Below are positions 24,597 to 32,260 of a stretch of DNA of 64,000 nt, piece after piece. A model generated the notes under the pieces. The model did not search any database. It worked only from the letters and a program-made list of their open reading frames with translations, and was not told the DNA's origin. Position 1 is the first letter of the stretch, and every line of letters starts with the position of its first letter. Source of the DNA: Hyphomonas sp. (GTDB taxonomy: Bacteria; Pseudomonadota; Alphaproteobacteria; Caulobacterales; Hyphomonadaceae); the NCBI GenBank assembly GCA_017792365.1, contig CP051229.1, positions 1,054,001-1,118,000 of the forward strand. The letters run 5' to 3'. Position numbers and translations under genes: made by a program.

Positions 24597-24920
24597 CTAC
24601 CGCTCCGGCTCCCCGCGCGCCAACTTTTCCGTAAGCGCCACGTACCGATCCTCCGGCGCCAGCGTCCACCAGTTGATGTCGTACGTGCGGCATACCCAAG
24701 TATGAAACACCAGCCCAATGAGTACATCGCCGAAGATGTAGATGAGGCTCCACGGTCCCAAAAAGTATGCCAGCACGCCAGAGATCAGCAGGTAGCGCCC
24801 GATCTTCCAAGGCAGCTTCCATTTTGGCCGTACGACCCGCCCGGTGTGCACGTAACCCAGTGCAGCAAGCGCCGTCGCCAGCGCCACATAAGGCAGCGCG
24901 GCAAGCAGCGCCGACGCCAC
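24597..24920 (-). CDS. small multi-span membrane protein
   Basis: The 107-residue protein has three hydrophobic stretches (LLAALPYVALATALAALGYV, RYLLISGVLAYFLGPW, SLIYIFGDVLIGLVFHTWV) and a polar C-terminus. Its GTG start at 24920 overlaps the valS stop (TAGTG), which suggests translational coupling with valS. No family was recognised. Confidence 0.6.
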   Translation of the reverse strand: MASALLAALPYVALATALAALGYVHTGRVVRPKWKLPWKIGRYLLISGVLAYFLGPWSLIYIFGDVLIGLVFHTWVCRTYDINWWTLAPEDRYVALTEKLARGEPER

Positions 24921-27819
24921 TACCCAGCCGCCTCAAGCTGCTTCAGCGCCGCCGCCAATTTCGCCTTCGTCTCGCCAGCCGAAGCCACGCGCTCCTTCTG
25001 CTCGTCGACGACTTCCGGCGGCGCCTTCTCCACGAATTGCGGATTGCCCAGACGCTTCTCCAGCCCGGTGATCTCGCCGTCCAGCTTGCCGATCTCCTTG
25101 GCCAGCCGCGCCTTCTCGGCGCCAAGGTCGATGAGGTCCGCCACCGACAGGCACGCCGTCGCCTCGTCGACCACCACCTGGATCGTCCCCTTCGGCGCCG
25201 CATCGACGAACGACACGTCCTCGACCCGCGCCAGCCGCTCGATCAGCGCGCGATAGTTCTCCAGCCGCCCTCTCGTCTCGTCCGACGCCCCCACCAGCGC
25301 CAGCGGAACCTTCGCCCCCGCCGGCACATTCACATCCTGCCGCGCCGAACGCACCGAAGAGATCAACCGGATCACCCAGTCCACCTCGGCCTCCGCCGCC
25401 GCATCCGACAACCCGCCCAGCTCCGGCCAGCGCTGCACGATCAGCAGCCTGCGCTCGCCCTCCGCCACGCCCGCATCCGCCTGCAGCGTGTCGAACAATT
25501 CCTCCGTCACGAACGGCATGAACGGATGCAGCATGTGCAGCATCTGCTCGATCACCCACGCCGCCGTTGCGCGCGTCTCGGCCTTCGCCGTCTCGTCCTC
25601 GCCAGAGAACAACGGCTTCACCAGTTCCAGATACCAGTCGCAGAACACGTTCCACGTGAAGCGATAGGCCGAACCCGCCGCCTCATTGAAGCGATACTGC
25701 TCGATCCCCTTCGCCGTCTCCGCCGTCGCCTTCGCGACCTCGGCGATGATCCACTTGTTCAGCGTGTGCTTCACACCCTTCGGATCGAAATCCGCAGTCC
25801 GCACGCACTCGTTCATCTGCGAGAAGCGGAACGCATTCCACAGCTTGGTCGAGAAGTTGCGATAGCCTTCCACCCGCTGCTTCGACAGCTTGATGTCGCG
25901 CCCTGCGCCGCCATCGCCGTCAGCGTCATCCGCAGCGCATCGGCGCCATACTCGTCGACCAGCTCCGTGGGATCGATCACGTTCCCCTTCGACTTCGACA
26001 TCTTCTGGCCCTTCTCGTCGCGGACCAGCGCATGAATGTAGACGTCCTTGAAGGGAACCTCGCCCATGAAGTGCAGCCCCTGCATCATCATCCGCGCCAC
26101 CCAGAAGAAAATGATGTCGAACGCCGTCACCAGCACCGAAGTCGGATAGAATTCCTTCAACGCCGGATCATCATTCCCCGGCCACCCCATCGTCGAAAAC
26201 GGCCACAGGCCAGACGAGAACCACGTGTCGAGAACGTCCGTGTCGCGCATCAACGGGATATTATGGTGCTCGTCTCCAAGGCCGGCCAACATCGCTCGGT
26301 ACTCTTCGGGCGTGTCGACCTCCACAAACTTGGCGCCCGTTACTGAGACCACCGCGCCATATGTTTCTTTCAGCGCATCTGAGATCTCGAAGACCGATTC
26401 ACCGACAAAGAGCTCGCGCTCAGGCGCCTCCGGTCCCGGGAACACCACAATATTCCCATCACTCGCTTTTGCGAGTGTGATCACGGGCCCAAACCACGCC
26501 GGTATCCGATGCCCCCACCACAGCTGCCGCGAGATGCACCACGGCTCGATGTTCCGCATCCACTCGAAGTAGGTCTTCTCCCAGTTCTTCGGCACGAACC
26601 GGGTGCGCCCGTCCTCCACCGCCGCAATCGCCGGTTTCGCCAGCTTCTTCGCGTCGACATACCACTGGTCCGTCAGCATCGGCTCGATCACCGCGTTCGA
26701 ACGATCGCCGAACGGCTGCATGATCTTCTTGTCTTCCACCTCGATCAGAAGCCCCAGCGCGTCGATGTCGGCCACAACGGCCTTGCGCGCCTCGAAGCGA
26801 TCCATACCGCGATACTTCTCCGGCACGTGCTCGGCGTCGGCCATCGCGCCCTTCTCGTCCATCAGGATGTACATCGGCAGGTCGTGACGCTTCGCCACCA
26901 TGTGGTCGTTGAAGTCATGCGCGCCGGTGATCTTCACCGCACCCGAACCGAAGTCCGGATCGGGGTGCTCATCCGCAATGATCGGAATGTAGCGATCCGC
27001 CAGCGGCAGCAGCACGCGCTTGCCGACAATCGGCGCATACCGCTCATCGCTCGGATGCACCGCCACCGCGCCATCGCCCAGCATCGTCTCCGGACGCGTG
27101 GTCGCGATCGAGATGTAGTCGCGCTCCTCCTCGAGAATCACGTTCCCGTCCGCATCCTTCTCGACGTACGTATACGTCTCGCCGTTCTCCAGCGGATACT
27201 TGAAGTGCCAGAAGTGTCCCTTCACTTCCCGGTTCTCCACTTCAAGGTCGGAGATCGCCGTCTGGAAATGCGGATCCCAATTCACCAGCCGCTTGTCGCG
27301 ATAGATGAGCCCGTCATTGTAGAGGTCGACAAACACCTTGGTGACCGCCGCCACCATCTGGTCATCCTCGACGCCCTTCTCGCCCATCGTGAACTTCTCG
27401 CGCGACCAGTCGCACGACGCCCCAAGCCGGCGCAGCTGCTGCATGATCTGCCCGCCGGACTGTTCCTTCCATTCCCACACCCGCTCGATGAACGTCTCGC
27501 GCCCCAGCGACGCCCGGCTCTCATTGCCGCCCGCCTCGGCCAGCTGCCGCTCCACCACCATCTGCGTCGCAATCCCGGCATGGTCCGTGCCCGGCTGCCA
27601 CAAGACGCGCTTGCCCTGCATCCGGTTGAACCGCGCCAGCACGTCCTGCAGCGTGTTGTTCAGCGCATGGCCGATGTGCAGCACGCCCGTCACGTTCGGC
27701 GGCGGAATGACGATCGAGAACGGCTCGCCCTCACCCTGCGGCTTGAACGCGTCCGCGCCCTCCCACTTGGCGTAGATGTCGCCCTCACGGGCGGTCGGAT
27801 CAAAACGATTCTCGATCAT
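24920..27819 (-). CDS. valS: valine--tRNA ligase (apparent frameshift)
   Basis: The class Ia aminoacyl-tRNA synthetase has ~966 residues when corrected. It has the HIGH box at 48-51 ([14 protein letters not shown]), the editing domain, [12 protein letters not shown], the anticodon-binding domain, and the C-terminal coiled-coil arm characteristic of ValS ([23 protein letters not shown]). After LTAMAAQG the frame is lost; inserting one base at about 25900 restores [20 protein letters not shown]. The gene is essential, so a real null frameshift is implausible; a sequencing error is likely. ATG 27819 ([16 protein letters not shown]) was chosen over the longer frame start. Confidence 0.95.
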
Positions 27820-27979
27820 GGACGCGGCCAGACTCTCAACAATCACAACCTGAAAGGAAGGCGAAAACACCTACCCCCAACCCCCGCCCCTGTCATCCCG
27901 TCATTGAACACCCTCAACCCACCTTGCAGACCTCGTCCAATCCGTCCCACATGGCCCGCCTACGAAGGGAGGCATCGTC

Positions 27980-28327
27980 ATGGCCGTCACCAGAATCGTT
28001 GCCAACCTCAAGGCTGAGGACCCGATGGCCCTTGCCGAATTCTACAAACAGGTCTTCGCCCTCAATCTGCCCTTCGATATGGGCTGGATCGCCTTTCTCA
28101 CCCGCGACGCCACCCAGAAGATCGAACTCCACACGGCCTCCCAGGGCGGCAATGACACGGAACTTCCCGTGATCTCCATCGGCGTGGACGACCTCGACGC
28201 CACGGAAGCCGCCGTTCGCGCAACCGGCGCCGAAATCGTTTACGGCCCGACAAGAGAGGAATGGGGCCTCCGCCGCTTCTTCTTCCGCGACCCTGCCGGC
28301 AACCTCATCAACGTCGTCGACAGCTGA
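27980..28327 (+). CDS. VOC-family (glyoxalase-like) protein
   Basis: The 115-residue vicinal-oxygen-chelate protein starts AVTRIVANLKAEDPMALAEFY, which gives the first beta-alpha-beta unit with FYKQVFALNLPFDMGWIAFL. The C-terminal half has ISIGVDDLDATEAAVRATGAEIVYG and FFFRDPAGNLINVVDS. GGGAGG upstream of ATG 27980 is a good ribosome site. Members include glyoxalases and dioxygenases; specificity cannot be inferred. Confidence 0.8.
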   Translation: MAVTRIVANLKAEDPMALAEFYKQVFALNLPFDMGWIAFLTRDATQKIELHTASQGGNDTELPVISIGVDDLDATEAAVRATGAEIVYGPTREEWGLRRFFFRDPAGNLINVVDS

Positions 28328-29133: not shown

Positions 29134-29140
29134 ACTACCC

Positions 29141-29251
29141 GTCATTCCGGGCGGAGGCGCAAGGCGCCGCAGACCCGGAACCCAGTCCTCGAAGTAACTT
29201 CCTACGGCTGGGTTCCGGATCTGCGCGGCTGCGCCGCTTGTCCGGAATGAC
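29141..29251. repeat. 111-bp imperfect inverted-repeat element
   Basis: GTCATTCCGG at 29141 is matched by CCGGAATGAC ending at 29251. The arms (~45 bp) pair with roughly three-quarters identity around a ~22-bp centre, ending CCGGAACCCAG on the left and its complement on the right. Such GTCATTCCGG palindromes are frequent non-coding repeats in alphaproteobacterial intergenic DNA. Confidence 0.65.
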
Positions 29252-29393
29252 ACAGATGCCTGACAACAGATCGAACACTCCGCCGCCAACACTCCGCCAG
29301 CAAAGCTGCGCGGAGGCGCCGGCGCACGCCCAAACGAAAAATCCCGGGCCATACAGCCCGGGTTCCCCGTACGCCCCGTACATTCCTGAGCGC

Positions 29394-29944
29394 CTAACGC
29401 GCCATCCGCCGGATGCGGTCCAGCTCGCGCGACACTTCCGCCTCCACCAGGCCCGGCAGGTTTGCGTCCAGCCATTCCTTCAGCATCGGCCGCAACAGCT
29501 CGCGCACGACGTCGTCCAGCGTGTTGTTCGACGACACCATCATCGAACCCATCAGCTTGCCCAGCGCGCCGGCCGCTTTCTGGGCAGCCGCATCGTCGAC
29601 AATGCCATCGCCGCGCGACGGCGCCGACATGACTGGAGCAGGCTCCGGAGCCGCCGGCTCCGGTTCGGGTTCAACGAACATCAGGTCAGGCTCAGGTTCC
29701 GGCGCGGGCTCCGGCTCAGGCGCGGCCGCAACCGGCTCGGGCTCGACCGGCTCCTCCAGCATCTCAGGCGCTTCCGGCTCCGGCTCGACCGCGACGATCT
29801 CTTCAACCGCCTCGTCCTCGACAGGCGCAGCGCGCATCCAGCGCCTCTTCGCCGCCGGCATCCTCGTCCTCGGAAATGATTTTGCAGAATCGACGCCGGG
29901 ATCTCTTCCATGGTCGGTTCGCGTTGTGCAAATTCAGCGCTCAT
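29394..29944 (-). CDS. popZ: polar organizing protein PopZ (apparent frameshifts in N-terminal part)
   Basis: PopZ assembles a ribosome-excluding matrix at cell poles and anchors ParB-parS and other clients. The start region [15 protein letters not shown] matches the PopZ N-terminal client-binding helix. The acidic Pro/Glu-rich linker ([14 protein letters not shown]) and the conserved C-terminal oligomerisation region ([28 protein letters not shown]) also match. Three frames must be joined: an extra base at about 29886 breaks the helix (restoring [17 protein letters not shown]), and a further indel is needed at about 29829-29840. These are probably sequencing errors. It lies next to tolC and upstream of valS. 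Confidence 0.88.
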
Positions 29945-30036
29945 GCAGACTCCGAGATCCCAGCTCCAATTTCACGCCGCCCCGTCAGCGATTCTTGATC
30001 TAGAGCAAGCTTGGACCGCGACGGCCAAACAAATGA

Positions 30037-30852
30037 TTAATCCGCCAGCGCCCCGCCATCGACCCGGCCGATCGCGGCCAGCAACCGGTGCGCCGAATGC
30101 CACCCGTTGCGCTTGGCGTCGACCAGCGACAGCCGCGCTTCCAGCAGGTCCTTCTCCAGCGCCAGCACTTCGGGCGTGAACCGCTCGCCGACCGACAGCT
30201 TCATCTGGGCGTTCTCGAGATTCGCCTTGGCGTACGAGACGCGCGTCTGCGTATCGCGGATGTCCATGCGCGATGCGACCATGTCATGCCAGCTATTGGT
30301 GATCGCAGAGGTGATCGAACGCTCGACCGCAATCCGGTCGAATCGCGCCCGGTCCGCCCGCATCTGGGCCGAGGAAATCTTGCCGGACGCCTCGACCATC
30401 GGCATCAGCTCGCCCTTGGCCACACGCAACCGGTGCAGCGCCGCGGCTTCTTCCGCTCGCGCGGCGCCCACATCAAGGTTGCGCTCCAGGCCCTCATCAA
30501 TCGCCGCCTGCAGCGTGCGCGGAATTTCGGCGACCGGCGCATCGTCGCTGGCGGCGCCTGTCGTCTCTGACGAAAACGATTCGCGACGCGGCGCTTCCTT
30601 GCGCGGCGCCTCGCGGCGCGCCTCGTTTCTTGGGCGCACCCCTTCCGCTGCAGCGTCGCGCTCGCCATCTCTCGCAAAGCCCGGCGATCCGGAGCCATGT
30701 GCGTATTCTACAGAGAAGTCCTCAGCAGCATTCGCTTTTGGTTCGGAACGTGACGGCATGCTGACGACCACTTCGTCGTCCGAAACGATCCTGCGTATGG
30801 ACGACAGGATCTCGTCCATCGTCGGTTCTCGTTGCGCTGGGTCCGCAGGCAT
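30037..30852 (-). CDS. PopZ N-terminus fused to a TolC-derived helical domain
   Basis: This is an intact 271-residue frame. Residues 1-31 (MPADPAQREPTMDEILSSIR, RIVSDDE) copy the PopZ client-binding start. Residues ~32-110 are a charged, disordered linker (NEARREAPRKEAPRRES). Residues ~113-271 are homologous to the second half of the adjacent TolC (compare RADRARFDRIAVERSITSAI with NADKARFERMAAERAVVQNV, and LSVGERFTPEVLALEKDLLE with LAVGERITLDVLDQERELLD). About 40 residues covering the TolC beta-strand segment are missing, and there is no signal peptide, so it should be cytoplasmic. The start ATG 30852 has GAGG upstream. It lies between tolC and popZ. The function is unknown; a polar adaptor is a hypothesis. 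Confidence 0.75.
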   Translation of the reverse strand: MPADPAQREPTMDEILSSIRRIVSDDEVVVSMPSRSEPKANAAEDFSVEYAHGSGSPGFARDGERDAAAEGVRPRNEARREAPRKEAPRRESFSSETTGAASDDAPVAEIPRTLQAAIDEGLERNLDVGAARAEEAAALHRLRVAKGELMPMVEASGKISSAQMRADRARFDRIAVERSITSAITNSWHDMVASRMDIRDTQTRVSYAKANLENAQMKLSVGERFTPEVLALEKDLLEARLSLVDAKRNGWHSAHRLLAAIGRVDGGALAD

Positions 30853-30952
30853 AACGGCCTCGTCTGTCCATGCGCTCGCCGGGGACGGTGACGATTCTCC
30901 CACCCCTCGAGCGCCATGTGTCGAGTAGAACGGCGCGTCGCCTAAATAGTGG

Positions 30953-32260
30953 TTAACGCAGGGGGGTCGCACCCGCTAAAGCGCCCGTTGCAGCCAGCAA
31001 TTCGTGCGCGGCGAGGTAGGCGTTTTGCTCTGCATCAATAAGCGCCAGCCGCGCGTCCAGCAACTCGCGCTCCTGGTCCAGCACGTCGAGTGTGATTCGC
31101 TCGCCCACGGCCAGTTCCTGCTGGGTCCCCTCCAACGCCACCTCGGCCGCCTCGACCTGTGCCCGCGATGCATCCACCGCCTCCCGGAACGAGTAAAGCT
31201 CGTGCCAGATCTGGGTGACGTTCTGGACAACCGCCCGCTCGGCCGCCATCCGCTCGAACCGGGCCTTGTCGGCATTCAGCTGGGCGGCGCGTGTCCGTGA
31301 ACGAAGCTCGCCCCCCTTGTAGATCGGCGCGCGCACCTCGGCGACGATTGAGGCGTCGGTGTCGCGCAGCGTCCGGTCCCAGTAATTCTCGCGCCAGCCA
31401 GCGCGGCCGACCAGGTCTACCTGCGGACGCACCTCGCCCTTTGCAGCGCGCGCTTCCGCTTCGGCCACCGCTTCCCTTCCCTGCGCGGCAACAAGGTCAC
31501 GATTACCCTCCATCGACAGAGCGATCGCGGCTTCCAGCGAACCGGGCAATTGCGGTGTCGGCGGCGGCGCAGCCAGCTGCACCGGCTCCCGCCCGACCAG
31601 TTCAACGAACGCCGCCCGCGCGCTCGCAAGATCGGCCCGCGCCTGCAACAGCGCAGCGCGCGACCCCGCCGCGCGGGCCTGCGCCTGCGAAACATCGGTC
31701 CGGGTCACTTCGCCGACGTCGAACCGGTCGCTGGCCGCCTGAACCTGCAGGCTGAGGGCATCGACATTCGCCGCCCTGATCTCCAACGCCTCCTCGGCGC
31801 GGAGCACCCGAGATAAACGCGGATCACTTCGAGAATCAGATCCTGCTCGAACGCAGTCAGCTCCGCCTCCGAAACCTCAACCCCCCTCCGCAGCTTCCCG
31901 GCGCGCAGTCACCGTGCCGCCAGAAAACAGGCTCTGCCGCAGCTCGAGCCCGACCGCTGCACGCGTCGAATCGCCATCCCGCGGAAATCTCACGCCGGTG
32001 GGCGAGGTAAACTGTTCGCCGATCTCATTCTGATAGCCGCCAAACGACCCGAATGCGGAGACAGAGGGCAACGCGCCGGCGCGGGCCTGCACCAGTGTCT
32101 CATCCGCACCGGTGCGCACCCGCCGCTGGGCCATCATCAGCGGATTGCTCTCGAGCGCAGAGGCGACCGCTTCCGGCAACGTCTCCTGGCTCGCCTGCGC
32201 GTGCGCCGATGCAACAAGTCCGGAAACAGAAGCCAAAAGCGCGACGGCGATTCGTTTCAT
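30953..32260 (-). CDS. tolC: TolC-family outer-membrane efflux protein (apparent frameshifts)
   Basis: The protein has about 435 residues after correction. MKRIAVALLASVSGLVASAHAQ is a signal peptide. The first OEP repeat (LPEAVASALESNPLMMAQRR... LELRQSLFSGGTVTARREAA) and the second (LEAAIALSMEGNRDLVAAQG... APIYKGGELRSRTRAAQLN... LAVGERITLDVLDQERELLD) give the duplicated barrel-plus-hairpin structure. Two frame changes are needed: one extra base in the C run at 31881-31886, and one missing base near 31806-31812. It is the outer-membrane exit duct for type I secretion or tripartite efflux. It lies between pcm and the hybrid gene. Confidence 0.88.

Follow-up and report, generated by a model that had tools for sequence, protein, structure and literature searches.

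A genomic chimera of the PopZ client-binding N-terminus and the second TolC repeat between tolC and popZ in Hyphomonas

Results

One gene of a Hyphomonas sp. genome is a genuine chimera, in which the N-terminus of the polar organising protein PopZ is followed by a charged linker and by the helices of the second structural repeat of TolC. The gene lies on the minus strand at 30037..30852 of the window, the 64,000-nucleotide stretch of contig CP051229.1 that was analysed and to which all coordinates refer. An initial annotation made from the sequence had described a single unbroken frame of 271 residues here, and reading of the ORF bore this out: the frame runs without interruption from an ATG at 30852 to a stop at 30037 (271 codons plus stop), and is open upstream as far as a GTG at 30972. 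The PopZ-like opening was recovered by the PopZ_fam model NF052660, which matched residues 9-46 with an E-value of 7.6e-7 (30.5 bits; cut-off 125) and was covered at profile positions 1-38. The C-terminal part, proposed to be TolC-like, does align in a profile search: the OEP family PF02321 matched residues 156-262 with an E-value of 2.3e-14 and 54.1 bits (gathering cut-off 22), and TIGR01844 matched with an E-value of 9.9e-14 and 51.1 bits (cut-off 225.15). The same kind of search gave no match in the hybrid to DUF2497 (PF10691), the C-terminal oligomerisation domain of PopZ, and a search of PHROGs for a phage origin also gave no match.

PopZ of Caulobacter binds clients through its N-terminal helix and oligomerises through its C-terminal helices, with a disordered, acidic region between the two (PMC9926476); the ParAB recognition sites lie within the first 26 residues (PMC5182065). 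The client-binding (helix 1) segment of the hybrid, MPADPAQREPTMDEILSSIRRIVSDDE, occupies residues 1-28 (30769..30852) and is supported by the PopZ_fam match, the dN and dS values and the structural model. It shares the motif EPTM(D/E)EIL(A/S)SIRRI with PopZ, and as in PopZ (DUF2497, NF052660) it is succeeded by a disordered linker and then by helices. The linker comprises residues 29-105 (30538..30768) and has the weakest coding signal of the hybrid. It is near neutral, with 12 K/R and 15 D/E, whereas the PopZ linkers of relatives are acidic (5-8 K/R, 16-31 D/E); the acidic, proline-rich linker typical of the PopZ family is therefore not present in the hybrid.

The remaining residues, 106-271 (30040..30537), form an all-helical domain that corresponds to the second TolC repeat by alignment and by model. 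When aligned with the neighbouring tolC product and the TolC proteins of relatives, this part extends over the entire second repeat, starting with the PVAEIPRTLQAA segment and ending at the C-terminus, bar one clean gap of 36 columns. The gap falls at the β-hairpin, between residues 157 and 158 (30381..30382), and agrees with the loss of about 40 residues of the TolC β region that had been proposed. The last 112 residues are 42% identical to the TolC of the same genome and 44-48% identical to that of the nearest relatives, and the tip motif is partly kept (VGERFTPEVL against VGERITLDVL). The hybrid thus shares the second repeat and its helical hairpin with TolC/OEP proteins (PF02321, TIGR01844) but, unlike a complete channel protomer with its two repeats, has repeat 2 only. 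It contains no membrane β-strands, as judged from the hairpin gap and from a model free of strands. Direct inspection of its N-terminal sequence, MPADPAQREPTMDEIL, revealed no hydrophobic leader, in agreement with the reported lack of a signal peptide; tolC by contrast begins with MKRIAVALLASVSGLVASAHA. The protein is accordingly expected in the cytoplasm, and both this prediction and the chimeric architecture are supported by the profile matches, the alignment gap and the helical model.

The AlphaFold2 model, computed from a 32-row alignment (pTM 0.59), predicted a helix at residues 12-25, within the PopZ segment, then a disordered stretch of ~85 residues reaching to ~110, and then helices at 112-124, 126-145, 156-221 and 226-261. 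The pLDDT was 90-98 across most of the C-terminal part. Foldseek returned TolC as the best solved match to the model (E 2e-5). VIA-align gave Z scores of 9-11 but did not discriminate, as F-BAR and other long-helix proteins score likewise; since such values are common for long helices, we base the TolC assignment on the sequence and on Foldseek. In a phylogenetic tree, the TolC part fell inside a 99/98-supported clade with the TolC of its own genome and those of the nearest relatives, on a long branch of 1.67 changes per column, given which the tree neither shows nor excludes the genome's own TolC as its sister.

Along the minus strand, tolC is followed by the hybrid, then by popZ and valS. 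All of 20/20 relatives from the family and order have tolC and popZ as separate neighbouring genes with nothing between them, and valS comes after popZ in 19/20. The adjacency of tolC and popZ extends as far as Thalassospira and Azospirillum; the nearest named relatives are metagenome bins of the Hyphomonadaceae such as UBA7672. The hybrid is an added gene and not a replacement, since both tolC and popZ remain beside it. Further fusions were sought in 105 genomes of the family (this one included) and 398 of the order, two overlapping sets, and no second fusion spanning both parts was found in the ~400 distinct relatives, among them the 104 other family genomes examined. A PopZ model search detected an N-terminal-only PopZ gene in this genome alone, the remaining split matches falling within one PopZ frame or on broken contigs, and a search of the GTDB-220 contigs with the hybrid yielded no relative. 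An alignment search with the TolC repeat named 77 loci, and those followed up were ordinary separate tolC and popZ genes. A 127-aa frame encoding a TolC half in one relative (G225) was set aside, as the match sits at a contig end. The hybrid is hence known from one genome. The suggestion that such a fusion is undescribed seems to hold, as a literature search found no report of a PopZ-TolC fusion.

The region upstream of the hybrid looks like a popZ-type leader. A GAGG ribosome-binding site directly precedes the hybrid ATG, as it does in the popZ genes of relatives, and a GAATC lies at 30893-30897, 45 nt upstream of the ATG. The distance is that found before popZ itself: GAATC lies 39-50 nt upstream of the popZ ATG in 10/13 near relatives, and in this genome the gap between hybrid and popZ (29945..30036) carries it at 29990-29994, at a distance of 50 nt from the popZ ATG. 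The gap between tolC and the hybrid (30853..30952) resembled the tolC-popZ gaps of relatives in 4/10 comparisons against shuffles (z 5.4, 4.4, 4.4 and 3.1). Compared over their full length in a shuffle test, the gaps ahead of the hybrid and of popZ showed no significant likeness; the two are alike only in the stop-anchored part (41/2000 shuffles). GAATC is a GANTC site, the target of the CcrM methyltransferase. Across the relatives, GANTC occurs in 16/19 tolC-popZ gaps (loci L086-L106 and L134), where ~5 sites in all would be expected, and in the nearest relatives its distance to popZ is fixed. Conserved control of popZ by CcrM/GcrA in the relatives is possible on the basis of these sites. GcrA regulates popZ in C. 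crescentus and does not do so in Brevundimonas subvibrioides (PMC7987155); as this control differs between species, we take the regulatory meaning of GAATC as a lead only. Terminator-like hairpins were looked for between tolC, the hybrid and popZ and none was found; one with a T run follows popZ (29343..29362, minus strand). Also adjoining popZ is a palindromic element (29136-29256) whose single-stranded DNA fold has an energy of -45.1 kcal/mol (z -7.8). It has 69 matches in the genome, many of them one place read on both strands, so that it is present in dozens of copies, like a REP or MITE repeat.

A chimera may be a decaying by-product of duplication, produced by chance and perhaps co-transcribed with popZ, with nothing in it under selection. 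Its occurrence in a single genome and the long branch of its TolC part would fit this. So would the state of the TolC residues: the last 112 residues keep 28/44 of the conserved TolC positions (0.64), which is no excess over the 0.57-0.67 of neutral simulation, and dN in the TolC part is ~0.5 against a dS of 0.6-1.5. Constraint on these residues, if there is any, is relaxed. The coding frame itself tells otherwise. Under simulated neutral decay, ~12-25% of 112-codon pieces stayed free of stops at K 0.2-0.3, whereas the hybrid has 0 stops in 271 codons. G+C by codon position in the TolC part is 0.70/0.47/0.85, and when the tolC genes of relatives were decayed neutrally to equal identity their third-position G+C fell to ~0.73 (sd 0.04), against 0.875 for the hybrid in these columns. 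The high third-position G+C and the open frame speak against a dead relic. Over the 20 codons of the PopZ core, dN against relatives is 0.14-0.22 with dS from 0.8 to saturated, and the first 19 codons of this helix-1 core show conservative changes only; the leader element and ribosome-binding site are also kept. Together, these results suggest that both the frame and the PopZ helix are maintained; by appearance, the hybrid is a duplication product peculiar to this lineage and kept in it. We consider decay unlikely, if still a serious contender.

Discussion

We favour, with confidence a little short of even, a reading in which the hybrid arose at the junction of a tandem duplication that began in mid-tolC and ended just inside popZ, and in which its product acts on polar clients as a soluble decoy or adaptor bearing the PopZ helix. 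The event would date to an ancestor of this Hyphomonadaceae genus, and the duplicated segment would have taken in the second half of tolC, the popZ leader and the first popZ codons. The junction would have set the popZ leader, its ribosome-binding site and the client-binding helix before a duplicate of TolC repeat 2, leaving tolC and popZ whole on both flanks, and subsequent loss of the membrane β-hairpin would have turned the copy into a soluble helical domain. Because tolC and popZ are neighbours in the relatives, one duplication across the pair yields exactly the order tolC, popZ-start::tolC-end, popZ. We infer the duplication event from the clade that holds the TolC part, the likeness of the upstream gap to the tolC-popZ gaps of relatives and the spacing of GAATC. 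It would be comparatively old, to judge by an identity of only 42% between the TolC part and the TolC of this genome. In Drosophila, chimeric genes arising at tandem-duplication junctions have been described (PMC4503668); like the hybrid, genes of this class combine the 5' part of one gene with the 3' part of its neighbour while both parents are kept. The present case differs in being bacterial and in its partners, a polarity protein and an efflux channel.

RcdA is a known PopZ client, and this genome encodes an RcdA homologue. Produced under a popZ-type leader and remaining in the cytoplasm, the hybrid could use its PopZ helix 1 to bind the clients of PopZ (ParA/ParB, RcdA and others). Having no oligomerisation domain, it would be a diffusible decoy or adaptor that tunes the capture of clients by the polar PopZ matrix. 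Expression, client binding and competition are all predictions from the sequence, of which a cytoplasmic client-binding decoy or adaptor appears the most economical. The initial annotation had proposed that the hybrid competes with, caps or extends the PopZ matrix. Capping or extending the lattice through a C-terminal oligomerisation domain is unlikely, as the hybrid has no DUF2497, and competition for helix-1 clients would be the more natural form. The stronger proposal, that the hybrid represents a new kind of PopZ-client adaptor in which a soluble TolC hairpin replaces the oligomerisation domain under a popZ-type leader and which competes for or redistributes ParA and ParB, we regard as rather doubtful.

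The TolC-derived helices might instead self-associate and display many copies of helix 1, making the hybrid a second small hub that offers clients an alternative scaffold of other geometry. The TolC α-barrel is built from the half-repeats of three TolC chains, and the hybrid domain has kept the TolC helical fold; PopZ moreover has the same order of parts, with helix 1, a disordered linker and oligomerising helices. Against self-association of this kind, the conserved TolC residues are partly changed, as counted above for the last 112 residues, and we think it distinctly unlikely, though still in contention. A diffusible decoy or adaptor remains our preferred reading of the function.

The quality of the local sequence bears on whether the two parts are truly one gene. 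The tolC gene (30953..32260, minus strand) is of full length with its signal peptide and shows a brief, compensated frame disturbance near 31.8-31.9 kb. In popZ (29394..29944, minus strand) the C-terminal DUF2497 is intact, and the helix-1/linker region is frameshifted as sequenced, within 29850-29944. The gene valS (24920-27870) is broken in two by a frameshift at about 25.9 kb; as this is the only valS of the genome, the break is almost surely an assembly error. A glyoxalase-family gene (27980-28327) lies on the plus strand between valS and popZ, opposite to both. Lying within 8 kb of one another, the frameshifts of valS, popZ and tolC are probably local assembly errors, and by the same token an indel in the linker of the hybrid is conceivable. 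A popZ remnant and a tolC remnant joined in frame by such errors would fit these frameshifts and the weak codon signal at residues 30-75, but this is highly improbable given that rpoB of the same genome is intact, that the codon score of frame 0 exceeds those of the other two forward frames in each 45-codon window, the linker included, and that nothing like a popZ leader stands directly before the TolC part. Should the popZ frameshift prove real, PopZ would lack its client-binding helix, and no gene of this genome other than the hybrid would carry helix 1 intact.

What is new here is the chimeric variant, whose component parts were already known: it departs from PopZ in its linker, in the missing DUF2497 and in helices derived from TolC, and from TolC in its single repeat, its lack of β-strands and signal peptide and its expected place in the cytoplasm. 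If the hybrid is functional, the client-binding helix of PopZ would be a portable module, open to transfer to a scaffold unrelated to its own, and the loss of a β-hairpin would have made one half of a membrane channel soluble. Such a protein would amount to a natural experiment that uncouples the binding of clients from the assembly of the matrix at the bacterial pole.
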